Virus record (IMG/VR): IMGVR_UViG_3300025137_000133
Location: 1 to 34,376 of that record
Direction: 5' to 3' (one strand)
Source of the DNA: a virus
DNA length: 34,376 nt
Shown here: positions 3,344-26,709 of the stretch, piece after piece
Position numbering within the stretch: position 1 is the first letter of the stretch
Layout of the letters: each line of letters opens with the position of its first letter
Made by a program: the position numbers and the translations under genes
Notes under the pieces: model-generated
Databases searched by the model: none
What the model saw: only the letters and a program-made list of their open reading frames with translations
What the model was told of the DNA's origin: nothing

Positions 3344-4810
3344 ATGGCGGATAAAACTTACACAGTCACAGTCGCAACGGGGCAACTGTATAATGGCGGT
3401 GGCGCAACAGGTAATGTTTATTATCTCGACGGTGTTCGTGATATGGATATTGTGTGGACGCAAGGTGCTACATTAAGATTTAATCAAGACGCTTCATCAA
3501 ACGATAATCATCCATTATTATTTACAAATGATTCATCAAATCCTAACTCTGGAAGAATAGAAACAGGAGTTGTTTATAATTTAGATGGATCATCAGTTCC
3601 TTATTCTGATTACGCTAGTGGAACTTTTAATTCAGCAACAACTCGATATGTAGAAATTACACCCGCAAGCGCACAAGATCTCTTTTACTATTGTTATTAT
3701 CACGGAATAGGAATGGGAGGAGAACTAGATATTGTTAATGATGCATGGGGATCTTTAAGTTGGAGTACAGGTCCTTGGGGTAATCAAGATGATTTATCAT
3801 TAACACTTACAGGACTTCCATTAAGTTTAAGTTTACAAAATGTTACAGCCACAGCAGAAGTAAATTCTGGTTGGGGAAGATCTACATGGGGTGCTTTAAG
3901 TTGGGGTGTAAGTTTTGCTAACGAAACAGCACAGCCAACTGGAATAGGCATGACCGCCACTTTAGGTGATGAAACAACAGCTGGAGAAATAAATAAAGGT
4001 TGGGGCAGAGAAGCTTGGGGTCGACAGGTTTGGGGAGATAATGAAAATTTTGTAGATGTTGATGTAACAGGAATTAGTTTAACAGCTAACCTTGGATCAG
4101 TAACAATTAGTGGTGAAATAAATATTGGTTGGGGCAGAAAAGAATGGGGAGAATTAGGTTGGGGTGTAAATACAGCAACCGCCAATGCTTCACCAACAGG
4201 AATTGGTTTATCCTCTTCTTTAGGTTCAGTATCTTTAACAACTGAAGTAAACACTGGTTGGGGCAGACAAACTTGGGGTGATTTAGGTTGGGGTATACCT
4301 GGAACTACAATCGCTCAAGGTTTTAGTTTATCTGCTAGTCTTGGTTCTGTAACCGCAACTGCTGAAGTAAATGCTGGTTGGGGCAGAAAAACTTGGGGTG
4401 AAGGTTTATGGAATAACGATGGAGACAATGTTGGTGTAGCAACAGGATTTGGATTAACTTCAACAGTTGCTGATGTAGGAATATCTACTGAAATTAACGT
4501 AGGTTGGGGAAGATCTACATGGGGTGCTTTAGACTGGGGTGGAGTATCTGATTCTATACAAGTAGCACCTACAGGAATAGGTTTAACAGCCTCTTTAGGA
4601 TCTGGTATTTATACTCCAAATACTATTGCCTCTCCTACAGGAATAGCCTTGACAAGTGCAGTTGGTAGTGTAAGTTTAACAGGAACGGGGACGGTAAGTT
4701 TAACTGGAAATAACTTGACAACGTCTACTGGATCGCTTAATGCTTTAATCTGGGAAACCGTCAATACCGGCACAACCGCTACTTGGAAAGAGGTTGACAC
4801 CGCAGCTTAA
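3344..4810 (+). CDS. Virion protein: cupredoxin-like domain fused to six GWGR repeats
   Basis: This 488-residue protein has three parts. Residues 1-132 look like a plastocyanin/cupredoxin fold: a strand TLRFNQ, then H56 in NDNHPLLF, and a C-terminal loop YYCYYHGIGMGG giving C117, H120 and M124. Together these form a His-Cys-His-Met set as in type 1 copper sites. Residues 134-400 carry GWGR.xWG units at 176, 219, 262, 305, 345 and 387 (period 40-43), each preceded by a beta segment of the TGIGLTASLGSV...EVN kind. The C terminus is Thr/Gly-rich. A GGAG site precedes ATG. It is probably a tail or fibre component. Copper binding is a prediction; related loops occur in many marine phage virion proteins and may only keep the fold. 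Confidence 0.65.
   Translation: MADKTYTVTVATGQLYNGGGATGNVYYLDGVRDMDIVWTQGATLRFNQDASSNDNHPLLFTNDSSNPNSGRIETGVVYNLDGSSVPYSDYASGTFNSATTRYVEITPASAQDLFYYCYYHGIGMGGELDIVNDAWGSLSWSTGPWGNQDDLSLTLTGLPLSLSLQNVTATAEVNSGWGRSTWGALSWGVSFANETAQPTGIGMTATLGDETTAGEINKGWGREAWGRQVWGDNENFVDVDVTGISLTANLGSVTISGEINIGWGRKEWGELGWGVNTATANASPTGIGLSSSLGSVSLTTEVNTGWGRQTWGDLGWGIPGTTIAQGFSLSASLGSVTATAEVNAGWGRKTWGEGLWNNDGDNVGVATGFGLTSTVADVGISTEINVGWGRSTWGALDWGGVSDSIQVAPTGIGLTASLGSGIYTPNTIASPTGIALTSAVGSVSLTGTGTVSLTGNNLTTSTGSLNALIWETVNTGTTATWKEVDTAA
3743..4543 (+). repeat. In-gene tandem repeats coding GWGR.xWG units (six, about 120-129 bp period)
   Basis: Six repeat units lie inside the 3344-4810 gene, each with GGTTGGGG(A/C)AGA coding G-W-G-R. 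A degenerate unit (AWGSLSWSTGPWG) lies ahead of them. Copies 1 and 6 share an identical 30-base stretch at 3869-3898 and 4502-4531, while inner copies have diverged, which points to recent copying or recombination between distant units. Confidence 0.8.
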
Positions 4811-4844: not shown

Positions 4845-5918
4845 ATGGCGAATTCAACATCAAGTTTTTTAAAACTTACAGTTCAAGCAACCGGTGAAAA
4901 CTCGGGAACTTGGGGACAAATTACAAACACAAATTTATTAATCGTAGAACAAGCAATTGCTGGTTATGAAGCAGTAGCTCTTAATGCTACAACAGGTGCA
5001 ACATTAACAGTTTCTAATGGTGCGGTTTCCAATGGAAAAAATGCAGTATTACAATTAACTGGAACTATTACAACAAACGTTAACGTAGTTGTTCCTGTAG
5101 TAGAAAAAGTTTACATCGTAGACAATGCCACTTCAGGCGCTTATTCAGTAACAGTCAAAACATCTTCAGGATCTGGAGTAGTATGGGCTGCAGCTGACAA
5201 AGGCACGAAGATGGTCTATGGTGATGGTACGAACATTGTGGACACAGCTTTCACAGAATTATCTTCAGACTTCTCACCGCAACTTTCAGCTAACTTAGAC
5301 ACTAATGGTCAAAATATTATTATTGATAATACAAAAGCTATTTTAGATGAAAACTCTAATGAGCAAATTAAATTTGCTACAACAGGTTCAGCTGTTAACG
5401 AATTTTCAGTTACCAACGCTGCATCAAGCGGCAGTCCTGCACTTTCAGTAACAGGTGGTGACACAAACGTTGACATGACGTTAACACCAAAAGGAACTGG
5501 TAGAGTTACAATTAATGGTGGTGGAAAAATTCAACAAATAGCAGAAAAAGTAACTATAGCTGCAACGGGTACAACAGGCGTAACTAACTTTGATGTAGTT
5601 ACACAATCTGTTCTTTACCATACAACAGCAGCTGCTGGTAACTTTACAGTTAACATTAGAGGTGATGGTTCTACAACTTTAAACAATATTATGGACACAA
5701 ATGAGTCAATCACAGTTGCTTTCTTAGTAACAAATACAGGCTCACCATATTATCAATCAGCTTTTACAATTGACGGATCAAGTGTTACTCCAGAATATCA
5801 AGGTGGAGCTGCACCTTCAGCTGGTAACGCTAACTCTGTTGACATATATACGTACACTGTAATTAAAACTGGAAGTGCTGCTTTCACAGTATTTGCGGCT
5901 CAAACACAGTTCGCGTAA
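4845..5918 (+). CDS. Tail fibre / virion structural protein
   Basis: This 357-residue protein has a CGGAG site before ATG. The N terminus (SSFLKLTVQATGENSGTWG, then TNTNLLIVEQAIAGY) is a signature shared by fibre-like virion proteins of marine phages and cyanophages, where it is thought to attach to the virion. The middle (about 150-230) holds short beta repeats (NIIIDNTKAILDENSNEQIKF; MTLTPKGTGRVTINGGGKI) typical of trimeric fibre shafts. The C-terminal 120 residues are a beta-rich head-like domain. With the next two genes it forms the fibre cluster. The family is recognised; receptor and exact location in the virion are unknown. Confidence 0.7.
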   Translation: MANSTSSFLKLTVQATGENSGTWGQITNTNLLIVEQAIAGYEAVALNATTGATLTVSNGAVSNGKNAVLQLTGTITTNVNVVVPVVEKVYIVDNATSGAYSVTVKTSSGSGVVWAAADKGTKMVYGDGTNIVDTAFTELSSDFSPQLSANLDTNGQNIIIDNTKAILDENSNEQIKFATTGSAVNEFSVTNAASSGSPALSVTGGDTNVDMTLTPKGTGRVTINGGGKIQQIAEKVTIAATGTTGVTNFDVVTQSVLYHTTAAAGNFTVNIRGDGSTTLNNIMDTNESITVAFLVTNTGSPYYQSAFTIDGSSVTPEYQGGAAPSAGNANSVDIYTYTVIKTGSAAFTVFAAQTQFA

Positions 5919-5939: not shown

Positions 5940-6857
5940 ATGCCAATAATTGGAGCAAGAGGCGCAGCCTCAGCAGCAGGATTCGGAGGAATAGGCGGCG
6001 GTGGAAAAAGTTTTATTGAAGCCACTGGTGGAACAGTAACTGAATTTGGTGATTATAAAGTTCATACTTTTACTTCATCAGATAATTTTGTCGTTTCAAA
6101 AGCACCTCCAACTGCAGGTATTTCTTATACTATTATAGCAGGTGGAGGAGGAGGCGGAGATGGATCTTCTTACACAGTAGGAGGTGGAGGCGGCGGAGCT
6201 GGCGGAGTTAGATCAGTTACTGACGATAGCCATCCTGTAACTGCCACAAGTTATCCAATAGTAATTGGGGGTGGAGGAGCTCCCGAAACAAATGGATCAG
6301 TTTCATCTGGTTTTTCAATAACTTCAGCAGGCGGAGGAGCAGGTCAAGGTGGATCTGGTTCTACAGGCGGATCAGGAGGCGGTGGAGGCGGCCCTTCAGG
6401 CACTGGAGCAGCTGGAAACACACCACCCGTAAGTCCACCTCAAGGTAATAATGGAGGAAATGGTGGCACAGTACCTAACTCTCCTGGAACTACATATAGA
6501 GGCGGTGGCGGCGGAGGAGCAACAGCAGTTGGAACTTCAGGCCCACCAGCAGGAGTTGGAGGAGCAGGAACAGATTTTGCACCCATATACGGCACACCCA
6601 TAGGACCAACAAATACAGTTTTTGGAGGCGGCGGAGGCGGCGGCGCATCTAGAAATACAGGAGCAAGACAACCATCTGGCGGCGGCGGAACTGGCGGCGG
6701 CGGAGGCGGCGGCGGTGCTAATACAGGCGGTGCAGGTACAGTTAATACAGGCGGCGGAGCTGGCGGCGGCGGAATGCAAAATGTTTCAGGTGACCCCCCT
6801 TATCCAGGTGGATCAGGTGGATCAGGTAGAGTTTTAATAAGGTATTTATTTAAATAA
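5940..6857 (+). CDS. Glycine-rich tail fibre tip / adhesin-like protein
   Basis: This 305-residue protein has AGGAGAAG before ATG. After a short N terminus, residues 27-60 (ATGGTVTEFGDYKVHTFTSSDNF) form the small beta module that precedes glycine-rich domains in many marine phage fibres. From about residue 68 to 292 the protein is runs of 3-8 Gly broken by Ala, Ser, Thr, Asn and short Pro segments (NTPPVSPPQ, GPPAGV, GDPPYPGG). It ends in a strand GRVLIRYLFK. Such sequences form polyglycine type II helix bundles in known phage adhesins. The run-rich DNA raises GC locally and creates long alanine- or serine-rich open frames in other frames, which are not genes. Role: probable distal receptor-binding piece. 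Confidence 0.75.
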   Translation: MPIIGARGAASAAGFGGIGGGGKSFIEATGGTVTEFGDYKVHTFTSSDNFVVSKAPPTAGISYTIIAGGGGGGDGSSYTVGGGGGGAGGVRSVTDDSHPVTATSYPIVIGGGGAPETNGSVSSGFSITSAGGGAGQGGSGSTGGSGGGGGGPSGTGAAGNTPPVSPPQGNNGGNGGTVPNSPGTTYRGGGGGGATAVGTSGPPAGVGGAGTDFAPIYGTPIGPTNTVFGGGGGGGASRNTGARQPSGGGGTGGGGGGGGANTGGAGTVNTGGGAGGGGMQNVSGDPPYPGGSGGSGRVLIRYLFK

Positions 6858-6861
6858 AATT

Positions 6862-7335
6862 ATGGCACACTTTTCAAAATTAACAGAAAATACCAACGAA
6901 GTATTAGGAGTAGTTGTTGTAGATAACAACGACATTTTAAAAAATGGTGTTGAAGATGAAGCTACAGGAAAAACGTTTTTAGAAAATGCAGTTAATTGGC
7001 CAGCTAATCTGTGGGTTAAAACTTCATATAATACAAAATACAATCAACATAAAGAAGGTGGAACACCATTTAGAGGTAATTTTGCTACAATTGGTTATAC
7101 TTGGGATTCTGAAAATCAAATATTTTGGCCCCCTAAACCTTATCCTTCTTGGGTAAAAAATATTGCTGAAGCAAGATGGCAATCTCCTATTGGAGATCAT
7201 CCAAATTTTAAATCAATTACGAGCCCTGAAGATATTTGGCCTGATAACGTAGATAATTCTGAAATGTTAACACCAAATGGTGATGGTAATTCCTATGAGT
7301 GGAATGAAACTACTTTGTCTTGGGATATAGCTTAA
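6862..7335 (+). CDS. Conserved virion structural protein of marine phages
   Basis: This 157-residue protein begins four bases after the fibre tip gene. The N terminus MAHFSKLTENTNEVLGVVVVDNND.., the central K(T)SYNTKYNQH and the F..IGYTWDSENQIFWPPKPYPSWV stretch are widely conserved in cyanophage and pelagiphage virion proteins. In those phages it is encoded beside fibre genes. The C terminus has Trp-rich beta segments (EDIWPDN, YEWNETTLSWDI). No catalytic motif is seen. It is probably a small fibre- or baseplate-associated protein; function is not established. Confidence 0.7.
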   Translation: MAHFSKLTENTNEVLGVVVVDNNDILKNGVEDEATGKTFLENAVNWPANLWVKTSYNTKYNQHKEGGTPFRGNFATIGYTWDSENQIFWPPKPYPSWVKNIAEARWQSPIGDHPNFKSITSPEDIWPDNVDNSEMLTPNGDGNSYEWNETTLSWDIA

Positions 7336-7379: not shown

Positions 7380-7934
7380 ATGAAGAAAGACTTACTCAAT
7401 AAGAAAGAGATATATTATGGAAGTATTAATATGCCTAAATATTTTGAAATAAATAGGTATGAATTAAAATCAGATATATTAATTTCTTTTATTGAAAAGA
7501 AAACAATTTCAAAAGATACTTTCAAATATGAATGTTTAGATTATGTTGTAAACCATTCAAAAACACATCAAACATTAATTAATTATATGATTGAACATTT
7601 ATATCTAAAATATAAATTAAATTTAATAAATGTATTAAGTTTTGCAAATGTTTTAGATAAAAACGAACAATCTTTTTCTAGAAAAATTAAAAATTCTAAA
7701 TATAAATTAGATAAGTCAAATTATGTTATGGTATATGGAATAGATGTTAATGATGATTGTTCTATTGTATTTGAAGATGAAAATTATTCAAACAATCAAG
7801 AACTACATCATTTTAATATAAATAATAATGAGTTTATATTATTTAAATCGACAGAAAGATTTTTTATTTCAAAAAATATTTCAAATAAAAAGAATATATT
7901 TTTGATAATAAATTTAGTAGATACATTATATTAA
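7380..7934 (+). CDS. Unknown protein, divergent double-stranded beta-helix (oxygenase-like) candidate
   Basis: This 184-residue protein has very AT-rich codons. The ATG at 7380 has no ribosome binding site. The ATG at 7431 (residue 18, MPKYFEINRYELKSD) has GGAAG seven bases upstream and may be the true start. The C-terminal 70 residues (acidic strand DCSIVFEDENY, a His pair H-H-F, then NEFILFKSTERFFISKNIS and IFLIINL) follow the strand order at the end of the 2-oxoglutarate oxygenases encoded next. However, no HxD motif and no clear distal His-Arg pair can be assigned. It is the first gene of the cassette and the two stop/start sites are two bases apart. It may be a catalytically inactive partner or an unrelated cupin-like protein. 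Confidence 0.45.
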   Translation: MKKDLLNKKEIYYGSINMPKYFEINRYELKSDILISFIEKKTISKDTFKYECLDYVVNHSKTHQTLINYMIEHLYLKYKLNLINVLSFANVLDKNEQSFSRKIKNSKYKLDKSNYVMVYGIDVNDDCSIVFEDENYSNNQELHHFNINNNEFILFKSTERFFISKNISNKKNIFLIINLVDTLY

Positions 7935-7936
7935 AC

Positions 7937-8581
7937 ATGAAATTAATTAATTATTACTGGTATTTTAAATCAGCTATTCCAGAGAGAATATGTGATCAAA
8001 TTGTTGAATATGGTAAAAGTAAAAACAAAAACACTCTTGGTTTAATAGGGAGTCTTGGTGCTAAAAGAAATACAAAGAAAAAACCTTTAACAAAAAAAGA
8101 AATTAAAGATTTAAAAAAGAAAAGAAATTCTAATATTGTTTGGTTATCAGAACCTTGGATTTATAACGAAATTCATCCATATATAAACATAGCAAATAAA
8201 AATGCAGGATGGAATTTTGAATGGGATTGGTCAGAGGCTTGTCAATTTACAAAATATGGAAAAGGTCAGTACTACGATTGGCATAATGATTGTTGGGAAA
8301 AACCCTATGAAGATCCTAATCCTAATCGAAACGGTAAAATTAGAAAATTATCTGCAACAATTAATTTATCTGATCCAAAAGATTATAAAGGTGGTGAACT
8401 GGAATTTGATTTTAAAAATCAAGAACCAAATAAAAAATCTAGTACCAGAACTTGTACTGAAATATTATCAAAGGGTTCTTTAGTTGTATTTCCGTCTTTT
8501 GTATGGCATAGAGTTAAATCAGTAACGAAAGGAGTAAGGTATAGTTTAGTGATGTGGAATCTAGGTTATCCCTTTAAATAA
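7937..8581 (+). CDS. 2-oxoglutarate/Fe(II) oxygenase, prolyl-4-hydroxylase/PKHD type
   Basis: This 214-residue protein spans a full single-domain oxygenase. Seen: H116-N-D118 in YYDWHNDCW (iron ligands), a strand KLSATINLSD, the GGELEFDF turn, GSLVVFPSFVWHRV with H191 (third ligand), and GVRYSLVMW with R201 (2-oxoglutarate carboxylate anchor). This order is the classic prolyl-4-hydroxylase alpha-subunit-like domain. A Lys-rich loop (44-63) lies N-terminal. The reaction would be hydroxylation coupled to 2-oxoglutarate decarboxylation in the cytoplasm. Substrate is unknown; proline or another protein residue is plausible from the family. The next ATG follows its stop by one base, and no ribosome binding site is seen, so the cassette is probably translationally coupled. 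Confidence 0.85.
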   Translation: MKLINYYWYFKSAIPERICDQIVEYGKSKNKNTLGLIGSLGAKRNTKKKPLTKKEIKDLKKKRNSNIVWLSEPWIYNEIHPYINIANKNAGWNFEWDWSEACQFTKYGKGQYYDWHNDCWEKPYEDPNPNRNGKIRKLSATINLSDPKDYKGGELEFDFKNQEPNKKSSTRTCTEILSKGSLVVFPSFVWHRVKSVTKGVRYSLVMWNLGYPFK

Positions 8582-8582
8582 A

Positions 8583-9110
8583 ATGATAAAAGAAGAACTA
8601 TTTAATATACCCATATGGTCAACAGAAATTGAAAATTTTATTGATAAAAAGAAAAAAATTGAAAAGATATTAAAATCTTTTCCAGAAGAAAGAACTGGAA
8701 TTCAAACATTTTTAACAAATAGGCATATGGTAAGAGAATTTCTTTCTGAAAATTTTTCTAAAGTTTTTAATGAAGAATTATCTAATTTAGTTAAAGATTT
8801 AAATAAAAATATAATCGTTGATGATGTTTGGTCCATTTCTTACAAAAAGGATGACTATCATATGACTCATAATCACGGAACCTTGGGTTTGACTGGTATT
8901 ATATATTTAAATATGCCAAAAAATGCTTCTAACACTTATTATATTCAACCTTGGAATAATTGGATTTCAGATAAAACAAATTATTTAACTTTTCCTATTA
9001 AAGAAGGAACCATGGTAATTATTCCAAAATTTATTAATCATTTTACTCTTCCAAATAAATCTAAAAAAATAAAAAGAGTTATATCTTGGGATATGAGTGT
9101 TGTGAATTAA
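8583..9110 (+). CDS. Putative 2-oxoglutarate/Fe(II) oxygenase (2OG-FeII_Oxy_5-like)
   Basis: This 175-residue protein begins LFNIPIWSTEI, the opening strand typical of this oxygenase subfamily, in which the domain fills the whole protein. Residues 93-109 carry H93, H96 and H98 followed by GTLGLTGIIYLN, matching the H-x-H..(S/T)G.(Y)YL motif. YYIQPW follows at 119-124. The distal half has GTMVIIPKFINHFTLPN with H153 and then R165 before a final strand. Ligands are therefore probably H96/H98 and H153, with Arg 165 for 2-oxoglutarate. This subfamily is mostly uncharacterised. It is coupled to its neighbours by single-base spacers. Confidence 0.72.
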   Translation: MIKEELFNIPIWSTEIENFIDKKKKIEKILKSFPEERTGIQTFLTNRHMVREFLSENFSKVFNEELSNLVKDLNKNIIVDDVWSISYKKDDYHMTHNHGTLGLTGIIYLNMPKNASNTYYIQPWNNWISDKTNYLTFPIKEGTMVIIPKFINHFTLPNKSKKIKRVISWDMSVVN

Positions 9111-9111
9111 A

Positions 9112-9729
9112 ATGAATTTTAAAAAACAAAAATATATAATTATAAAAAATATTATAGATGTTAAATTATGTAAATTTATTTTTAATTATTTTTTATTAAA
9201 AAGAAAGGTTGTAAAAACATTATTTGATCAGAAATTTATTTCTCCATTTTCAATTGAGTGGGGAACTTGGTCTGATAAACAAGTACCTAATACCTATTCT
9301 CATTATGCTGACATAGCTATGGAAACTTTATTACAAGAGGTTCAACCAATAATGGAAAAACACACCAAATTAAAATTAATCCCTACTTATTCTTATGCAA
9401 GAATATATAAAAGAGGAGATGTTCTACATCGACACAAAGATAGACCTAGTTGTGAAATATCTACTACTTTAAACTTGGGTGGCGATCTTTGGCCTATTTA
9501 TCTTGAACCTTCAGGTAAAAAAGAAAAAGCTGGAATTAAAATTAATCTAAAACCTGGTGACATGCTTGTATATTCTGGTTGTAAACTAGAACATTGGAGA
9601 GAAGCTTTTGATGGCAAAGATTGTGCTCAAGTATTCTTACATTATAATACATCTTCTAAAGAAGGTGAAAAAAATAAATTTGATGGAAGACCTTTTCTTG
9701 GATTACCTAATCAATTTAAAAAATTATAA
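9112..9729 (+). CDS. 2-oxoglutarate/Fe(II) oxygenase-like protein of marine phages
   Basis: This 205-residue protein carries YARIYKRGDVLHRHKDRPSC, with H108-x-D110 as probable iron ligands (H106 is a nearby alternative). It continues with a strand STTLNLGG, GDMLVYSGCKLEHWREAF with H161 as the distal ligand, and a strand AQVFLHYN in which Gln 173 stands where many relatives have Arg or Lys. The end KFDGRPFLGLP is characteristic of this phage-abundant subgroup. The Gln at the cosubstrate-anchor site is either a family feature or a sign that 2-oxoglutarate is held differently. The stop overlaps the next start as TAATG. Confidence 0.75.
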   Translation: MNFKKQKYIIIKNIIDVKLCKFIFNYFLLKRKVVKTLFDQKFISPFSIEWGTWSDKQVPNTYSHYADIAMETLLQEVQPIMEKHTKLKLIPTYSYARIYKRGDVLHRHKDRPSCEISTTLNLGGDLWPIYLEPSGKKEKAGIKINLKPGDMLVYSGCKLEHWREAFDGKDCAQVFLHYNTSSKEGEKNKFDGRPFLGLPNQFKKL

Positions 9730-10259
9730 TGAAAATTGTTAGTAACAAAAATTTTTTATTAACTGTCGATAATCTTTTTACAAAAAAAGAATGTGAACAT
9801 TTGTTAAACACATACAATAAAAATTGTATTTTACCTGAGAAAAATAGTAATTATAATTATTTATATAAGGATATTGAGGTAAATACTTTTCCCTTTTTGG
9901 AAAAGTTAAATAAAATAACTTGTTTGTATAGAGAAAAATATCCAGAATCAGATTTAGTAACAATGCCTTGGAAATTAAATTATTTAAGATTTAAACTATT
10001 TAAAAAAGGAAAAAGTTTTATTAACTTTCATTCTGAACTTTCTAAAAATTCTTTTCATAGATTTTTAAGTATTCAAATTTATTTAACAGATCATAAATGT
10101 GGTACTGAGTTTTTTAGGACCCATAAAACAATATCAAGTAAAATAGGAAGGGTGTGTATTTTTCCAGCTTATTTTACACATACACACAAAGGTCAACCTG
10201 ATATAAAAAAAGAAAGAGCAATAATAACTGGTTACTATACTTTTTATGAAAAAATTTAA
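9729..10259 (+). CDS. 2-oxoglutarate/Fe(II) oxygenase (prolyl hydroxylase-like, H-x-E variant)
   Basis: This 176-residue protein carries the motif NFHSELSKNSFHRFLSIQIYL with H101-x-E103, where Glu replaces the usual Asp ligand, then CGTEFF. The distal part IGRVCIFPAYFTHTHKGQ has H151 (or H153), and KKERAIITGYYTF has R163. The FP..FTH.H.G pattern is typical of phage-encoded prolyl hydroxylase-like proteins. Opening strands NFLLTVDNLFTKKECEHLL match the N-terminal helix/strand of these enzymes. An HxE triad is tolerated in some members of the superfamily. The gene overlaps the next by 14 bases. Confidence 0.75.
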   Translation: MKIVSNKNFLLTVDNLFTKKECEHLLNTYNKNCILPEKNSNYNYLYKDIEVNTFPFLEKLNKITCLYREKYPESDLVTMPWKLNYLRFKLFKKGKSFINFHSELSKNSFHRFLSIQIYLTDHKCGTEFFRTHKTISSKIGRVCIFPAYFTHTHKGQPDIKKERAIITGYYTFYEKI

Positions 10260-10839
10260 AATTAATACGCCTTGTGTTCTTTTTAATTTAAAAGAACATT
10301 TAAAAATAAAGAAAAAATTAATTACTTTAGTAAATATTACTAAAAATGATTCTCTTACTACAATTGATGAATATCACTCTGATTTAATACATAATTTAGA
10401 TTTTAATTATTCTACTGATTTTTCAAGAAAATGGGTTATTTTTTTATTAAAATATTTAAATAATTATTTTAAAGATATTGCATTTAATTTAGGCTATCAA
10501 AAACATCTGATTAAAAACATTTGGTTTCAACAATATAAAAATGGTGGACAACATGGATGGCATACCCACGGAGGTAATTACACTGGAGTTTATTATTTAA
10601 ATTTTTCAAATAAATGTGCAAGAACTGAAATTATTGATCCATTTTCTCAAAATAAAAAAATTACAATAAACGCTGTTGAAGGAGATGTAGTTATATTTCC
10701 TAGTTATGTTATACATAGAGCTACTAAACAAGTTAACAAAAGTACTAAAACAATCATATCTTTTAATTTAGATTTTGATAAACCTAATCAAAACATATTA
10801 AATAAAATTTCAGGTTTAAAACCTCATAACGCTTTTTAA
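10246..10839 (+). CDS. 2-oxoglutarate/Fe(II) oxygenase (2OG-FeII_Oxy_5-like)
   Basis: This 197-residue protein carries residues 92-120 IWFQQYKNGGQHGWH..HGGNYTGVYYLNF with H103, H106 and H108, followed by an acidic E..DPF loop. GDVVIFPSYVIHRA then gives H157, and TKTIISFNLDF gives K168 at the usual Arg position. This is the second member of the H-x-H subfamily in the cassette. It is only moderately like the 8583-9110 protein, so the two are either ancient duplicates or separately acquired. Its start lies inside the preceding gene (14-base overlap), again without a clear ribosome binding site. Confidence 0.78.
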   Translation: MKKFKINTPCVLFNLKEHLKIKKKLITLVNITKNDSLTTIDEYHSDLIHNLDFNYSTDFSRKWVIFLLKYLNNYFKDIAFNLGYQKHLIKNIWFQQYKNGGQHGWHTHGGNYTGVYYLNFSNKCARTEIIDPFSQNKKITINAVEGDVVIFPSYVIHRATKQVNKSTKTIISFNLDFDKPNQNILNKISGLKPHNAF

Positions 10840-11367
10840 ATGTATATGAACAAGAAAATAAAAATAATAGATAATTTTTTAAATAAAAATGATTTAAAAG
10901 CTAGTAAAGAATTTATTTTTTCAAAAAATTTTCCTTGGTATTTTAATCCTTTTCAAACATTAGAAAATAAAGATTCTTCTTATTTTTTTCATATTTTTTA
11001 TGTTAATTATAAAGTTAATTCAAATTATTTTAATTTAGTCGAACCTTTTATTAAAATTTTAAATCCACTATCTTTAATTAATATTAGAGCTAATTGTGTT
11101 ATAAATAGGAAAAAATCAAATTCTGATTTTCATACAGATTCATTTGATTGTACTAAATTAAATCATATGACTTCTATATTTTATTTTAATACAAATAATG
11201 GCCATACTTTGTTTAAAGACAAGTCTAAAGTTAAATGTGTTGAAAATAGAATGGTTATTTTTCCATCTAGTTTAGAACATAAAGCAGTTGCACAAACAGA
11301 TACCGAAAGAAGAATTGTTGTTAATTTTAATTTTTTTCCTCGTGATGATAATAAAAAAATTTTCTAG
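10840..11367 (+). CDS. 2-oxoglutarate/Fe(II) oxygenase
   Basis: This 175-residue protein starts directly after the previous stop (TAAATG); an ATG two codons in (10846) is an alternative start. Opening IKIIDNFLNKNDL is typical of single-domain phage oxygenases. Iron ligands are H98-T-D100 in SDFHTDSFD and H147 in MVIFPSSLEHKA; R157/R158 in ERRIVVNFNFF anchor 2-oxoglutarate. A short TSIFYFNTNNGHTLF strand pair lies between. The catalytic set is complete, so activity is expected. It is the last oxygenase of the cassette; its 3' end overlaps the next gene. Confidence 0.8.
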   Translation: MYMNKKIKIIDNFLNKNDLKASKEFIFSKNFPWYFNPFQTLENKDSSYFFHIFYVNYKVNSNYFNLVEPFIKILNPLSLINIRANCVINRKKSNSDFHTDSFDCTKLNHMTSIFYFNTNNGHTLFKDKSKVKCVENRMVIFPSSLEHKAVAQTDTERRIVVNFNFFPRDDNKKIF

Positions 11368-11674
11368 GTTTTTAACAGGAATAGAATATCCTAAAGAAAA
11401 AACCTCCTGGAATATTGCGGGTATGATAAAAGGTAGTAATGCTTTTTATAGATTTGATGTTAGAAAAATGTTTAAAATGCCGGATGGAACACCAGCACAG
11501 AGTGGACGTCTTGATACAAAAGCTCAAAAAATGGTTCTTGAAAGTGAAAAAGAATGGCTTATTCTAGATCTTGAAGAGCTTCATGAATATATACGTAGAG
11601 AAAAGAAGAAAGAACTCTACATAAACGATTTGATACCCAAGCTAGAATGGACTATATTTTTGACCAAAAACTAG
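11345..11674 (+). CDS. Conserved hypothetical protein
   Basis: This 109-residue protein starts at an ATG inside the end of the last oxygenase gene (23-base overlap); an upstream extension of the frame has no support. The sequence has an N-terminal FSRFLTGIEYPKEKTSWN, a central FYRFDVRKMFKMPDGTPAQSGRLDTKA and an acidic/basic helical C terminus (EEWLILDLEELHEYIRREKKK-like), ending PKLEWTIF. It has no known catalytic motif. Codon use is less AT-rich than in the oxygenases, so it probably belongs to the ancestral backbone at the cassette's right edge. Function unknown. Confidence 0.6.
   Translation: MIIKKFSRFLTGIEYPKEKTSWNIAGMIKGSNAFYRFDVRKMFKMPDGTPAQSGRLDTKAQKMVLESEKEWLILDLEELHEYIRREKKKELYINDLIPKLEWTIFLTKN
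11630..11658 (+). promoter_or_regulatory. Possible sigma70-like promoter before the gp10-like gene
   Basis: TTGATA (11630-11635), a 17-base spacer and TATATT (11653-11658) lie in the end of the preceding gene. The expected start near 11665 would leave a 24-base leader before the ATG at 11689. Both boxes differ from consensus and such pairs occur by chance in AT-rich DNA. Confidence 0.25.
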
Positions 11675-11688
11675 TATAGTGAGTTATT

Positions 11689-13638
11689 ATGGCATTAAAA
11701 AAAGTAAAATTCCAACCAGGTTTTGATAAACAAGGGACTCCCGCTGCCGCTCCAGGTAAATGGGTAGATGGAGACTTTGTTAGATTTAGATATGGCATCC
11801 CTGAAAAGACTGGGGGTTGGCAACAATTAACGAATGATCAAAATACTATACCTGGTGCTGCGAGAGCTCAACACACATGGACATCTTTAGCTGGAGAAAA
11901 GTATGCAGCCATAGGAACATCTCAAGGTTTATTTTTATATTACGGAGGTGCCTTTTATGATATTACGCCTTTGGACACTGCAATTACTGGAGGTACTTTT
12001 ACAACTTCAGCTGCAGCCGCTGCTACAGTAACGATCAACAAAGCGGGACATGGTTTAGAAGCAGGAAGATATATTACTTTATCTTCTGTTTCTATGGGAG
12101 CTAACACAACATTAGGATCTTCTGATTTTACTACTTACGCTTTTGAAGTTTTAACTACAGCAACCAATTCTTTTACTATCAGCTTAACTAATCCTGCAGC
12201 CGGTGTTACAACAACAGAGAACAATGGAACAGGAATGGCTGCAAGTGGAGCCTGTACCATTAATCCTTACTTTATTGTTGGACCTACAACTCAAACTCTT
12301 GGTTATGGTTGGGGCACTTACTTATGGGGCGACTCTACATGGGGCACGGAACGAGCAACTTCTAATGTTGTTCTAGAACCAGGTAATTGGTCGTTAGATA
12401 ATTTTGGAGAAACTTTAGTGGCTACAATAACTAACGGTAAATCTTTTACTTGGAATGCTGGAGCTACAAACGCTAGAACAATAAGAGCAGCTGTTATGAC
12501 AGGAGCTCCTACAGCTTCACGGTTAACAATTGTGTCTGAAAAAGATAGACATTTATTTCATTTAGGAACAGAAACAACAATTGGAGATAGCTCTACGCAA
12601 GACCCAATGTTTATTAGATTCTCTGATCAAGAGTCAACATCTGTATATCAGCCAACTGCTATTAACACAGCTGGAACATTTCAATTGGATAAGGGAAACA
12701 AGATTGTAGCCGCTGTGCAAGGTAAAGATTATATTTTAATTTTGACAGATCAAGCAGCTTATGTTGCTCAATTTGTTGGACCACCATTTACATTTAGTAT
12801 TAGACAAGTTGGAACCAATTGTGGTTGTCTTGGACAACACGCTGTAGCTTTTGCACAGGGTTCAGTATTTTGGATGGGTCGTTCAGGAGGCTTTTTTCAA
12901 TTTGATGGTACCGTTAAACAATTACCTTGTTTAGTTGAAGACTTTGTATTTACTACAGGTGATGGAAATTTAGGTTTAAATTTTAATGCCACTGAAATTG
13001 TTTATGCAGGTCATAATAGTTTGTACACAGAAGTGAAGTGGTTTTATCCAAAATCAGGATCTACACAAATTGATAGAGTTGTTACTTATAATTATGGTGA
13101 AGCAAGTTGGTATACAGGATCTTTAGATAGAACAACGTATCAAGATGCAGACGTCTTTAATGAACCTTACGCAACTGACTATATACCAAAAGATCAAAGT
13201 GGAACCAACGATCCGTCTGACGTTCCTTTATTTCCTATATCTGGAATTACTGACACTTACGGAGCAACTGTTTATTATTGTCACGAAAAAGGTACAGATC
13301 AAATTAATAGCACAGGTACGAGTGCTATTGCTGCGTTTATTAGATCCTCTGACTTTGATATTGACGATGGTGAATTTATAATGTCAATGAGTAGATTTAT
13401 TCCTGACTATAAACAAATTGTAGGTAACTCAAAAATCTCATTATTTATTAGTGATTTTCCATCTCAGACACAAACCGTATCACCCCTAGGGCCATTTACT
13501 ATTACAAGCTCAACTACTAAAATAGATACTAGAGCTAGAGGTAGATTGTTAAGTGTAAAAATAGAGAACGAATCAGTAGGAGAGACTTGGAGATATGGAT
13601 CTTTAAGACTTGATGCACAACCTGATGGTAGAAGATAG
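11689..13638 (+). CDS. P22 gp10-like packaged DNA stabilisation protein (tail hub)
   Basis: This 649-residue protein opens KVKFQPGFDKQGTPAAAPGKWVDGDFVRFRYGIPEKTGGW (residues 6-44 overall pattern: P-G, W.dgd.VRFR.G.PEK.GGW), the hallmark of the phage stabilisation family of P22 gp10. In P22, gp10 binds gp4 under the portal and closes the tail. Beta-propeller-like repeats follow (WTSLAGEKYAAIGTSQGLFLY). Residues 100-200 hold a Thr/Ala-rich beta insertion, and 206-219 has a GWGTYLWGDSTWG stretch resembling the repeats of the 3344-4810 protein. The C terminus has R-G-R and DAQPDGRR. Length is close to or longer than typical P22 gp10 (about 470), consistent with the insertion. The assignment is strong. 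Confidence 0.82.
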   Translation: MALKKVKFQPGFDKQGTPAAAPGKWVDGDFVRFRYGIPEKTGGWQQLTNDQNTIPGAARAQHTWTSLAGEKYAAIGTSQGLFLYYGGAFYDITPLDTAITGGTFTTSAAAAATVTINKAGHGLEAGRYITLSSVSMGANTTLGSSDFTTYAFEVLTTATNSFTISLTNPAAGVTTTENNGTGMAASGACTINPYFIVGPTTQTLGYGWGTYLWGDSTWGTERATSNVVLEPGNWSLDNFGETLVATITNGKSFTWNAGATNARTIRAAVMTGAPTASRLTIVSEKDRHLFHLGTETTIGDSSTQDPMFIRFSDQESTSVYQPTAINTAGTFQLDKGNKIVAAVQGKDYILILTDQAAYVAQFVGPPFTFSIRQVGTNCGCLGQHAVAFAQGSVFWMGRSGGFFQFDGTVKQLPCLVEDFVFTTGDGNLGLNFNATEIVYAGHNSLYTEVKWFYPKSGSTQIDRVVTYNYGEASWYTGSLDRTTYQDADVFNEPYATDYIPKDQSGTNDPSDVPLFPISGITDTYGATVYYCHEKGTDQINSTGTSAIAAFIRSSDFDIDDGEFIMSMSRFIPDYKQIVGNSKISLFISDFPSQTQTVSPLGPFTITSSTTKIDTRARGRLLSVKIENESVGETWRYGSLRLDAQPDGRR

Positions 13639-14130: not shown

Positions 14131-14302
14131 AATAAAATGCAAAACTGTTTATACTTGGCGTAATACGAAAACAGGAGAAATTTTTAAAGAAGAGAAAGAA
14201 GGATCTGATATTGTAAAAGATTGTACAGTAGTGGTAGATCCAGAAGGATTAGAACTAATACAGAAAGTAATGAATCAAAAAAATGATGAACCAAAGTCCT
14301 AA
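14120..14302 (+). CDS. Small hypothetical protein
   Basis: This 60-residue protein has a start inside the previous gene (11-base overlap) and its end overlaps the next gene by 20 bases. The sequence is TRIKCKTVYTWRNTKTGEIFKEEKEGSD, then a hydrophobic TVVVDPEGLELI segment and an acidic tail. It has a single Cys pair neither of which forms a CxxC motif. No family is recognised. Tight overlaps on both sides in the same reading direction are the main support for a real gene. Confidence 0.5.
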   Translation: MTTRIKCKTVYTWRNTKTGEIFKEEKEGSDIVKDCTVVVDPEGLELIQKVMNQKNDEPKS

Positions 14303-15215
14303 AGGCGGAACTGAATTACAATTAGAATACCTGTCTAAATACGTTGATAAAGACTTATTAGATAAAGTACAGATTACAACATCTGTGCCTGAAAAGATTC
14401 CATTACATCCAACTAAACCGAATGTATTATGGCAAAAGAATTCTTGGGATCAGCCCAATATCTACCCCTGGTTTAATGATCCCAAGAATACCAACAAATA
14501 TGATATGTACGTATTTAATTCTCATTGGAACTTGGAACAATTTCGTAAAGTATTTAAGATGCCTTTAGATAAATGTACTGTAATTAAAAATGGTATTGAT
14601 GAAATACCTATGAGAAAACCCTATCAAAAAGGTGAACCCATAAAGCTTATTCATCATTGCACACCTTGGAGAGGACTATCTGTATTGCTTGGTGCTATGC
14701 AACTTGTAAAGAGTGATGTAACTTTAGATGTTTATTCTAGCTGTGAAGTATATGGAAAAGAATTTGCTGAAAAAAATGATCCTCTGTATCAAGGTTTATA
14801 TGATCAAGCTAAACAATTAAAGAATGTAAATTACATAGGATACAAACCCAATAGTTATATCAAAGAGCATTTAAAAGATTATCATGTATTTGTTTATCCA
14901 AGTATATGGGAGGAGACTTCTTGTATCTCGGCTATTGAATCTATGGCTGCAGGTCTTTACTGTGTGCTCACGGACTTTGGAGCTCTCTATGAAACTTGTG
15001 CTGAATATGCTTTGTACATTCCCTTTGATGATAACTACAAAGCTTTATCTCAAAAATTTGCTTATGCTATTGATGCGGTCGTACCAACATTATCTGACCC
15101 TTCTTTACATGAACATTTAATGTTACAATCAGAATACGCAAGAAAGTATTATGGTTGGTCTAAGCAATCTATCAACTGGAAACGAACATTGGAAGGATTA
15201 CTAAATGCAAAATAA
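14283..15215 (+). CDS. Glycosyltransferase, GT-B fold (GT4-like)
   Basis: This 310-residue protein starts with two Met codons (14283 and 14286). An N-terminal SPKGGTELQLEYL resembles the GGxE loop of GT4 enzymes, though the usual first strand before it is nearly absent, so the N-terminal Rossmann part is short. VLWQKNSW and YVFNSHWNLEQF follow; then CTVIKNGID (the V..NGID sugar-nucleotide loop), HHCTPWRGLSVLL, and PSIWEETSCISAIESMAAG at 206-224 with the E-x7-E pair E211/E219. It transfers a sugar from a nucleotide donor, location cytoplasmic. Acceptor unknown. It precedes a second glycosyltransferase in the same operon (11-base overlap), suggesting a joint glycan or virion modification. Confidence 0.8.
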   Translation: MMNQSPKGGTELQLEYLSKYVDKDLLDKVQITTSVPEKIPLHPTKPNVLWQKNSWDQPNIYPWFNDPKNTNKYDMYVFNSHWNLEQFRKVFKMPLDKCTVIKNGIDEIPMRKPYQKGEPIKLIHHCTPWRGLSVLLGAMQLVKSDVTLDVYSSCEVYGKEFAEKNDPLYQGLYDQAKQLKNVNYIGYKPNSYIKEHLKDYHVFVYPSIWEETSCISAIESMAAGLYCVLTDFGALYETCAEYALYIPFDDNYKALSQKFAYAIDAVVPTLSDPSLHEHLMLQSEYARKYYGWSKQSINWKRTLEGLLNAK

Positions 15216-20308: not shown

Positions 20309-24472
<4,164 letters not shown>

Positions 24473-25027: not shown

Positions 25028-25221
25028 TGACTAAAGACAATGCACTACAACGAATAGACTCACATGAAAAACTCTGCAGAATTATGCAGAAGCAGACTCA
25101 TGACAAAATTCATAAATTAGAATCACAAATTACAAGAGTAGAGAGAATATTATTAGTATCTATGGGAGCAGTCATTACAGGTATGGGTGGTGTTATTTTA
25201 GTTCTCTTACAAAAACTTTAG
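25027..25221 (+). CDS. Small coiled-coil plus membrane-helix protein, possible holin-like (XhlA-type)
   Basis: This 64-residue protein has N-terminal residues 1-38 that are charged and heptad-like (LQRIDSHEKLCRIM.., HDKIHKLESQITRVER), and residues 41-61 are a clear membrane helix (ILLVSMGAVITGMGGVILVLL). Short proteins with this topology (coiled coil, one helix, short basic tail) match the haemolysin/holin-accessory XhlA pattern found in phage lysis modules. No lysin is encoded next to it, so the assignment is tentative. It is the last gene of the + strand late block, and its stop overlaps the stop of the minus-strand helicase by four bases. Confidence 0.5.
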   Translation: MTKDNALQRIDSHEKLCRIMQKQTHDKIHKLESQITRVERILLVSMGAVITGMGGVILVLLQKL

Positions 25222-26651
25222 ATCCAATCTTTTAATTCTTCACCCATAATTTGATTAGCAATATTTATTTTTTTACGTAAGGCTTTTACAATTCTTTCAT
25301 CAACAGTCTTTTCACAAATAATATCTACATAAGTCATTTTTCTTTTTTGACCTATACGATTAATTCTAGCTTCTGACTGTGTTCTTTTCTCAAGGTCGTA
25401 ACCATTAGAATAATAAACCATAGTGTCAGCTTCAGTTAACGTGATACCATAACCACCCGTTTGAGGCGTACCAATAATAAATCTAACTTCGCTCTCAGGA
25501 TCTTGAATTTGTTTTATAGCTTTCTGTCTATCGTCTGTAGACGTGTCACCATAGTAAGTAACATAAGACTTATCCCCAAATGTTTTTTTAACATGTTTAA
25601 CTATTGTTGCTATATCGTTCCTCCAATGTGCCCATATTACAACTTTACCCTGTGCTTCGTTTAACACATCAATCAAAGCGTTGACTCGGTCATTTTTAAT
25701 CTCAGTAACTTTTCCTGTATCAGATTTAAAATGTCCGCAGGTAATTTGTTGTAAACGCATTAGCTGCACCAAAGCTGTAGCTGTACTCATGGTCTCTCCA
25801 TCTTGAATAGCCAAAGCCATTTTCTTCATTTGATCATATAATTTTTGTTGTTCCGGTGTGAGCTGTATAATTCTTTTTTGATAAGTATAAGCAGGTAGAT
25901 CTAAACAATCTTCTTTTAATACTCTGTAAGAAAAAGGTTTAATTTTTTCTGATAGTTCTTCTAGGTTCTTATACCCCACTACAATCTGTACGGATCGTCC
26001 ACCAAAATTAGCTGTAGCCATTTTAGCATAACGAGTTCTAAACGTGTAATAAGATGAATGGCCTAACAACCAAGGATCAAGGAACTCACATTGTTTATAT
26101 AAATCTAATGGTGATTTAGTTACAGGAGATCCTGTAAGTATTCTTCTATACTTAGACATCTCACCAAGCTTTACAATATTTTTAGTTCTCTTCGCATCAG
26201 GGTTTTTAATAGTAGTTGATTCATCTATAGCCATTAGCGTGCTGTGAGAGTTTAAAAATCTTTCTGCAAACTCTACACCTTTTGATGTACTAAAAGCTTC
26301 TACATTCATAATTAAAATATGAAGATCTTCACCTGTTTTAAATAAACTATTTAATAATAATTTTTGTCTCTGACTTTGAGTTGCTTTCCATAAGACTGTG
26401 TTAGTTTCTATATGATCAGGTAAATGAGTTGGTATCTCACTATCAAACCAATTTTTATACACACCCTTTGGTGCTATTAATAAAGCTCCATTGATCTTAC
26501 CTTTATCATAAAGCATAGCGATATTATCAAGAAGTACCTTAGATTTACCCGTACCCATTTCCATAAAGTACGCAAATACCTCTTTATTCCAAGACATTTC
26601 TAATGCCTCAAGCTGATGCCCGTAAGGTTTCGTTTTAAATTTATAATTCAT
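25218..26651 (-). CDS. SNF2-type SF2 DNA helicase/ATPase
   Basis: This is the only minus-strand gene, 477 residues from the ATG at 26651. A TTG at 26696 would add 15 residues but lies beside the promoter, so the ATG is preferred. Motifs: YGHQLEAL (Q motif), MGTGKS at 32-37, DEST at 143-146 (DEAD/H motif II), LTGSP at 172-176, and QSEARINRIGQ at 425-435 (motif VI). The R..RIGQ arrangement is typical of SNF2 proteins. It uses ATP to translocate on double-stranded DNA and may act in replication restart, recombination or removal of bound proteins. It is convergent with the late genes and divergent from the early ones. Codon use matches its neighbours. Confidence 0.85.
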   Translation of the reverse strand: MNYKFKTKPYGHQLEALEMSWNKEVFAYFMEMGTGKSKVLLDNIAMLYDKGKINGALLIAPKGVYKNWFDSEIPTHLPDHIETNTVLWKATQSQRQKLLLNSLFKTGEDLHILIMNVEAFSTSKGVEFAERFLNSHSTLMAIDESTTIKNPDAKRTKNIVKLGEMSKYRRILTGSPVTKSPLDLYKQCEFLDPWLLGHSSYYTFRTRYAKMATANFGGRSVQIVVGYKNLEELSEKIKPFSYRVLKEDCLDLPAYTYQKRIIQLTPEQQKLYDQMKKMALAIQDGETMSTATALVQLMRLQQITCGHFKSDTGKVTEIKNDRVNALIDVLNEAQGKVVIWAHWRNDIATIVKHVKKTFGDKSYVTYYGDTSTDDRQKAIKQIQDPESEVRFIIGTPQTGGYGITLTEADTMVYYSNGYDLEKRTQSEARINRIGQKRKMTYVDIICEKTVDERIVKALRKKINIANQIMGEELKDWI

Positions 26652-26660
26652 TTTTCTTTC

Positions 26661-26689
26661 TTGCAATGTCTTACAATAATTATTATAAC
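26661..26689 (+). promoter_or_regulatory. Divergent promoter region between helicase (-) and early genes (+)
   Basis: On the + strand, TTGCAA (26661-26666), 17 bases and TATAAC (26684-26689) precede the ATG at 26710, which has AAGAAAGG as its ribosome binding site. On the - strand, TATAAT reads from bases 26687-26682, giving a start near 26670 for the helicase; its -35 is weak. The two -10 elements overlap, so the promoters should compete. The -10 elements are good; the -35s are partial. Confidence 0.45.
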
Positions 26690-26709
26690 TAGTCAAGAAA
26701 GGTTATGAA

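Follow-up and report, generated by a model that had tools for sequence, protein, structure and literature searches.

A 2-oxoglutarate oxygenase-fold gene cassette exchanged together with an adhesin-like gene in a putative HTVC023P-type pelagiphage

Why would a phage keep seven consecutive genes of one enzyme fold beside its tail genes? We asked this of a 34,376-base virus record (IMG/VR IMGVR_UViG_3300025137_000133; the whole stretch is called the window below), in which seven abutting plus-strand open reading frames (ORFs) at 7380-11367, O1-O7, form a cassette of genes with the fold of 2-oxoglutarate (2OG)-Fe(II) oxygenases. We found that an adhesin-like gene, its small neighbor T and the 2OG-fold run are exchanged as one block between phage backbones, and that one member of the run, O1, has lost its iron ligands. 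The site is laid out as follows, with one small gene (11366-11674) between O7 and M:

5940-6857, plus strand: Gly-rich adhesin-like protein (305 amino acids, 35% Gly) that bounds the exchanged block on the upstream side; PF21722 Gly_rich_2, 3e-12
6862-7335, plus strand: T, small protein of unassigned function, always beside a Gly-rich adhesin-like gene; phrog_7759, 7e-29
7380-7934, plus strand: O1, conserved iron-less pseudo-oxygenase with the 2OG fold, ligands lost; hhalign, structure model and ligand columns
7937-8581, plus strand: O2, predicted 2OG-Fe(II) oxygenase, PKHD-like, H116/D118/H191; PF13640, 1e-16; phrog_61, 3e-36; PKHD hydroxylase PiuC, 4e-6
8583-9110, plus strand: O3, predicted 2OG-Fe(II) oxygenase, H96/H98/H153; PF13759, 1.7e-9; phrog_81, 2e-25
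9112-9729, plus strand: O4, predicted 2OG-Fe(II) oxygenase, H108/D110/H161; phrog_2954, 5e-51; triad; structure model
9729-10259, plus strand: O5, predicted 2OG-Fe(II) oxygenase, H101/E103/H151; PF13640, 2e-4 (below cut-off); phrog_61, 4e-17
10246-10839, plus strand: O6, predicted 2OG-Fe(II) oxygenase, H106/H108/H157; PF13759, 1.9e-10; phrog_81, 6e-30
10840-11367, plus strand: O7, predicted 2OG-Fe(II) oxygenase, H98/D100/H147; PF13640, 3.5e-6; phrog_274, 5e-42
11689-13638, plus strand: M, virion structural protein that marks the downstream limit of the cassette site; phrog_3287, 4e-85

Exchange of the adhesin-like gene, T and the 2OG-fold run as one block

Three related loci (L090, L093 and L095) share the window's backbone on both sides of the site: the genes at 4845, 11689, 14283, 15205 and 17843 are 84-98% identical and the gene at 20309 is 97-99.6% identical where covered, while those at 3344, 16113 and 18739 are more diverged. 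Their adhesin, T and cassette differ from the window's, and the window adhesin has no match there. The opposite combination was found in contig L003, whose adhesin (79%), T (84%) and cassette (88-96%) are close to the window's, yet whose M is only 60% identical.

Divergence was then correlated over 43 loci. O2 and O4 divergence followed that of T (r = 0.58 and 0.55) and of the adhesin (0.34 and 0.39), as against -0.16 and -0.04 for M and -0.03 and 0.12 for the gene upstream of the adhesin, effect sizes that are approximate because the loci are phylogenetically non-independent and some are near-duplicates. None of 200 permutations equalled the partial correlations of O2 and O4 with T or the adhesin given M. 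Simple linkage was rejected as the source of the O4-T co-inheritance, since O4 often lies nearer M yet tracks T; in the 19 loci where O4 is nearer M than T, it still did so (0.75 versus 0.12 for M).

The first-pass annotation of this DNA had described seven consecutive small genes that were AT-rich relative to both flanks and mostly devoid of ribosome binding sites, and this description was confirmed. The coordinates are correct, with successive junctions of +2, +1, +1, -1, -14 and 0 nt; GC content is 0.175-0.285 in O1-O7 versus 0.356 in the other window genes, an AT bias also present in 118/126 loci; and an AGGA/GGAG/GAGG (Shine-Dalgarno-like) site was found for none of the seven (0/7), compared with about half of the other genes. 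An assembly artefact, which a synteny check was to detect, could be ruled out because the independent contig L003 carries all seven genes in the same order at 89% DNA identity. They are genuine genes kept by purifying selection: the ratio of nonsynonymous to synonymous substitution (dN/dS) between the window and L003 was 0.09-0.38 for every one of them (O5 lowest at 0.09; O1 0.28).

We found no direct DNA similarity to annotated phages. M, at 56-60% identity, has homologues in Pelagibacter phages HTVC023P and HTVC027P, and the order T-O1-O2-x-O4 around the site is that of HTVC023P; by this shared virion protein and gene order, the phage is putatively an HTVC023P-type pelagiphage, and from such relatives we infer a SAR11 host.

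How common is such a cassette? We fetched 80 loci around M homologues regardless of 2OG genes and counted the 59 loci with at least 2.9 kb upstream of M, drawn from these 80, the window and three cultured phages. One or more 2OG-fold genes occupied the same site upstream of M in 59/59 loci, always between tail/adhesin genes and virion genes (59/59), with 1-10 members per locus and varying content, and an empty site was never seen (0/59). The suggestion that this is a hot spot for gaining 2OG genes is thereby supported. The order O1-O2-x-O4 recurs across loci, and the triad motif was present in 211/211 relatives outside any named class compared with 95/396 background ORFs. The density itself, which had been taken as unusual, is not: at least five 2OG genes were found in 27 and at least seven in 14 of the 59 loci, cultured SAR11 myophages have runs of five (HTVC008M) and six (Mosig), eight non-orthologous 2OG genes are reported for HTVC023P-type phages (PMC9599517), and cyanophage S-SCSM1 has 24 (PMC9602691). 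Seven in a row is ordinary for this phage group and for marine phages.

Orientation also varies. HTVC027P-like phages carry the cassette reversed at the same site, without the Gly-rich adhesin or T. In M loci lacking both of these (L130, L145, L147, L160 and others), the cassette strand is likewise opposite to that of the tail/virion genes, and the two orientations of the island appear to distinguish two lineages.

The small gene at 11366-11674 lies at the block's downstream edge and had no family match in Pfam or PHROGs searches. L090 and L093 keep it at 65-75% identity and M at 94-95%, indicating that it evolves faster than M. Elsewhere in the window, 25218-26696 is the sole long minus-strand ORF kept in the gene order (492 amino acids, TTG start), and GC skew reverses locally at the same place.

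Six predicted oxygenases, one iron-less relative and two wrong names

The iron triad, HxD/E (or HxH) followed by a distal His, is intact in O2-O7 (6/6), O3 and O6 having HxH and not HxD, and all six ligand sets quoted in the first-pass annotation are present as given. The Pfam searches it proposed matched O2 and O7 (PF13640) and O3 and O6 (PF13759) above cut-off; O5 gave a sub-threshold PF13640 match only (2e-4), and the Pfam search of O4 gave no match. PHROGs matches support all six. O6 is a distant relative of O3 (28% identity over 111 amino acids, 4e-10). An iterated O5 profile drew in the O2 family, so genes were labelled with strict profiles. Each of O2-O7 shows the double-stranded beta-helix fold or matches a curated profile, O5 through phrog_61 and its sub-threshold Pfam match only, and all six are thus classed as members of the 2OG-Fe(II) oxygenase superfamily with predicted activity.

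For O4, the HxD...H triad is invariant (33 sequences) and the predicted structure is confident (predicted local distance difference test, pLDDT, 94.6). Its best PDB match is the prolyl-4-hydroxylase 4iw3, and each of the 50 PDB matches listed is a 2OG oxygenase or an uncharacterised protein with the same fold. The best relatives of O4 are protein hydroxylases, namely a prolyl-4-hydroxylase whose structure was solved together with EF-Tu, and the HIF hydroxylases; those of O2 are PKHD hydroxylases. The O4 match came from the fold search only; a PDB sequence search with the O4 profile returned nothing.

These results conflict with names in circulation. O4 homologues are labelled 'ferrochelatase' in GenBank records, PHROGs and PMC9599517, yet the ferrochelatase domain PF00762 matched none of the 33 O4 sequences and nothing in six pelagiphage genomes (five with genes named ferrochelatase), although bacterial controls were positive. 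Given the invariant triad, the confident 2OG fold and the missing PF00762, we rejected ferrochelatase as the identity of O4. Similarly, O7 homologues are labelled 'DNA endonuclease V', but O7 and the S-SSM7 gene named denV both score as PF13640, and the real denV domain, PF03013 Pyr_excise, is located elsewhere in S-SSM7 and Mosig. O7 matched PF13640 and not PF03013, and was therefore rejected as a T4 endonuclease V. Both wrong names recur in annotations and papers and have shaped published interpretation: PMC9599517 treats O4 homologues as true ferrochelatases partnering with oxygenases, a partnership better understood as a further oxygenase family within one cassette.

The first-pass count of six oxygenases among seven genes stands for O2-O7 with their triads. 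The seventh gene, O1, proved to be no unrelated gene; it is a degenerate member of the same fold. A profile of the O1 family (32 sequences) aligned full-length with a PF13759-type family at 93% in hhalign after bridging sequences were removed, compared with at most 0.2% for seven control families. The predicted structure (pLDDT 88) has the double-stranded beta-helix fold and matches 2OG dioxygenases in the PDB and among viral models. The distal His is replaced by Tyr or Phe in 31/38 sequences. Among 73 distinct relatives retrieved with O1 itself, the same replacement is present in 69, and none keeps both His (0/73). Because the triad is lost, we filed O1 as a pseudo-oxygenase and not an oxygenase. 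The relationship was silent in simpler searches: a single-sequence Pfam search of O1 gave no match, 1/32 family members gave PF13759 at 0.2, profile comparison of O1 with O4 gave no signal, and a PDB sequence search with the O1 profile found nothing, the match coming from the fold search only.

In the loci fetched with O1 itself, O2 lies directly downstream on the same strand in 68/75 independently sampled loci, the downstream junction is an overlap or a gap of at most 10 nt in 71/75, and T precedes O1 in 76/80. O1 represents a large conserved phage pseudo-oxygenase family, under purifying selection and with O2 as its fixed neighbor. A characterized parallel is TlxI, a 2OG-fold subunit held dysfunctional as an oxidase that raises the efficiency of TlxJ in their heterodimer (PMC12141560, PDB 7VBQ); the O1 model has 7vbq among its best PDB matches. 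The putative O1/O2 pair, seen as gene adjacency, would likewise combine a 2OG-fold subunit that is non-functional as an oxidase with an active one. By this analogy, O1 may support O2 without itself catalyzing, much as TlxI supports TlxJ. The two systems also differ, in that TlxI/TlxJ belongs to a fungal natural-product pathway and TlxI is described without the 2OG-binding arginine, whereas O1 is without the iron ligands.

Adhesin maturation and its rivals

What might a set of such enzymes do beside a tail gene? We tentatively favor, at slightly under an even chance, the reading that the cassette is a swappable adhesin-finishing module, a protein-hydroxylation set matched to the tail adhesin of an HTVC023P-type pelagiphage, the Gly-rich protein at 5940-6857 presumably serving as that adhesin. 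O1 and O2 would form a heterodimer in which non-catalytic O1 aids O2 in substrate binding. During virion assembly, O2-O7 would act on the tail adhesin or on other proteins of the tail, hydroxylating side chains that might be those of proline, lysine, asparagine or aspartate, each enzyme serving different sites, so that the cassette would have to match the adhesin and travel with it. This is the simplest account, and it is favored by where the cassette lies, by its inheritance together with the adhesin, by the resemblance of O4 to prolyl hydroxylases and O2 to PKHD hydroxylases, and by how diverse the members are. The earlier idea of a pathway that modifies several residues or substrates fits the data, though unproven.

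The neighbor T is a candidate adhesin chaperone or tip protein. It lies directly upstream of a same-strand 2OG gene in 63 loci, and a Gly-rich gene lies upstream of it in 64/66. Its family also follows immediately after a Gly-rich adhesin-like gene in phages of SAR11, Roseobacter, OM43, Synechococcus and Pontimonas that are unrelated, with or without 2OG genes. Since T adjoins Gly-rich genes in many phages without 2OG genes, we rejected it as a dedicated substrate of the cassette.

Our literature search found no functional test of phage 2OG genes. Several points weigh against adhesin maturation. We found no expression timing for this cassette. The Gly-rich adhesin and T are present in phages with no nearby 2OG gene, so such adhesins do not need the cassette. 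Conversely, the HTVC027P-like reversed cassettes lack adhesin and T, which refutes the Gly-rich adhesin as exclusive substrate. A receptor-side or other host-specific role fits the co-inheritance equally well.

One form of such a role is modification of the cell surface: together with phage glycosyltransferases downstream of M, the oxygenases would change the glycans on the host surface, for superinfection exclusion or receptor masking, or would hydroxylate proteins ahead of their glycosylation. A glycosyltransferase is indeed encoded at 14283-15215 (PF00534), downstream of M in 15/18 loci with enough sequence, and receptor-side modification would likewise be co-inherited with the adhesin. This glycosyltransferase is, however, 97% conserved in phages with wholly different cassettes, so it belongs to the stable backbone and was rejected as a cassette member; we consider the glycan explanation unlikely. 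We give similarly little credence to a passive hot spot, in which an AT-rich variable island beside tail genes collects mobile accessory genes that have no joint function. Content and number (1-10) do vary at one site, the AT bias is widespread (118/126 loci), and host-recognition regions are known variable islands with Fe(II) oxygenases among their contents (PMC3909814). But a single fold dominates the site, all seven genes are under purifying selection, the order O1-O2-x-O4 recurs and no empty site occurs among 59 loci.

Still less probable is a metabolic role, proposed for cyanophages (PMC3037559), in which the enzymes use up 2-oxoglutarate and so shift host nitrogen/carbon status. Host iron uptake genes are up during HTVC027P infection (PMC12753301), in line with this role, yet a single enzyme would be enough, whereas these phages retain as many as ten different members; inheritance goes with the adhesin, and a conserved member without an iron site, O1, cannot turn over 2OG. 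AlkB/TET-like oxidation or repair of nucleic acids, whether to protect phage DNA or to modify it, is about as improbable. DNA repair has been proposed for cyanophage members (cited in PMC3037559) and 4/33 O4 relatives match PF13532 weakly (best 0.011), but protein hydroxylases lead the O4 structure matches and a DNA role does not predict co-inheritance with the adhesin. A defence-system reading was rejected as well, the PADLOC search returning nothing beyond a generic 2OG profile and some weak Cas5/HNH noise. No rival accounts as well as adhesin maturation for both the adhesin co-inheritance and the conserved iron-less partner, though receptor-side modification would also be co-inherited.

Related phage clusters and biological meaning

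That marine phages carry 2OG-rich clusters is already known. The closest are those of HTVC023P-type phages (HTVC023P gp63-gp67, 023Pt_psg01; PMC9599517), which share with the window the phage group, the site upstream of M and the order T-O1-O2-x-O4. There the oxygenases are described as nearby and not adjacent and the O4 homologues as ferrochelatases, whereas the window has seven contiguous genes, O4 among the predicted oxygenases and O1 as a pseudo-oxygenase. HTVC008M and Mosig EXVC030M, both SAR11 myophages, also have 2OG runs adjoining tail genes, five genes long in the first and six in the second and with homologues of O2 and O4 among them, but on an unrelated virion backbone and in opposite orientation. 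Mosig EXVC030M, unlike the window, has extra genes annotated heme oxygenase and phycocyanobilin:ferredoxin oxidoreductase; in our locus L088 (1651-2887) these come after the 2OG run, which is odd for a phage whose host has no phycobilins. T4-like cyanophages (S-SCSM1 with its 24 genes, PMC9602691; PMC3037559) have the same subfamilies, PF13640/PF13759, and the same wrong names, on much larger genomes and with metabolic or DNA repair roles proposed. As far as we could find, the O1 pseudo-oxygenase partner, the corrected names of O4 and O7 and the inheritance of the cassette with the adhesin look new.

Marine phages frequently carry 2OG oxygenases as accessory genes, for which a 2-oxoglutarate/nitrogen switch and DNA repair have been published as ideas. 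Inheritance of the cassette with the adhesin, and not with the phage backbone, points instead to host recognition, and a large family of phage pseudo-oxygenases has been identified. More broadly, and as something possible rather than probable, marine phages may carry dedicated adhesin-matched hydroxylation cassettes, in which several site-specific hydroxylases, one of them heterodimeric with an iron-less pseudo-oxygenase, would mature a receptor-binding tail protein and be exchanged with it as one host-recognition module.

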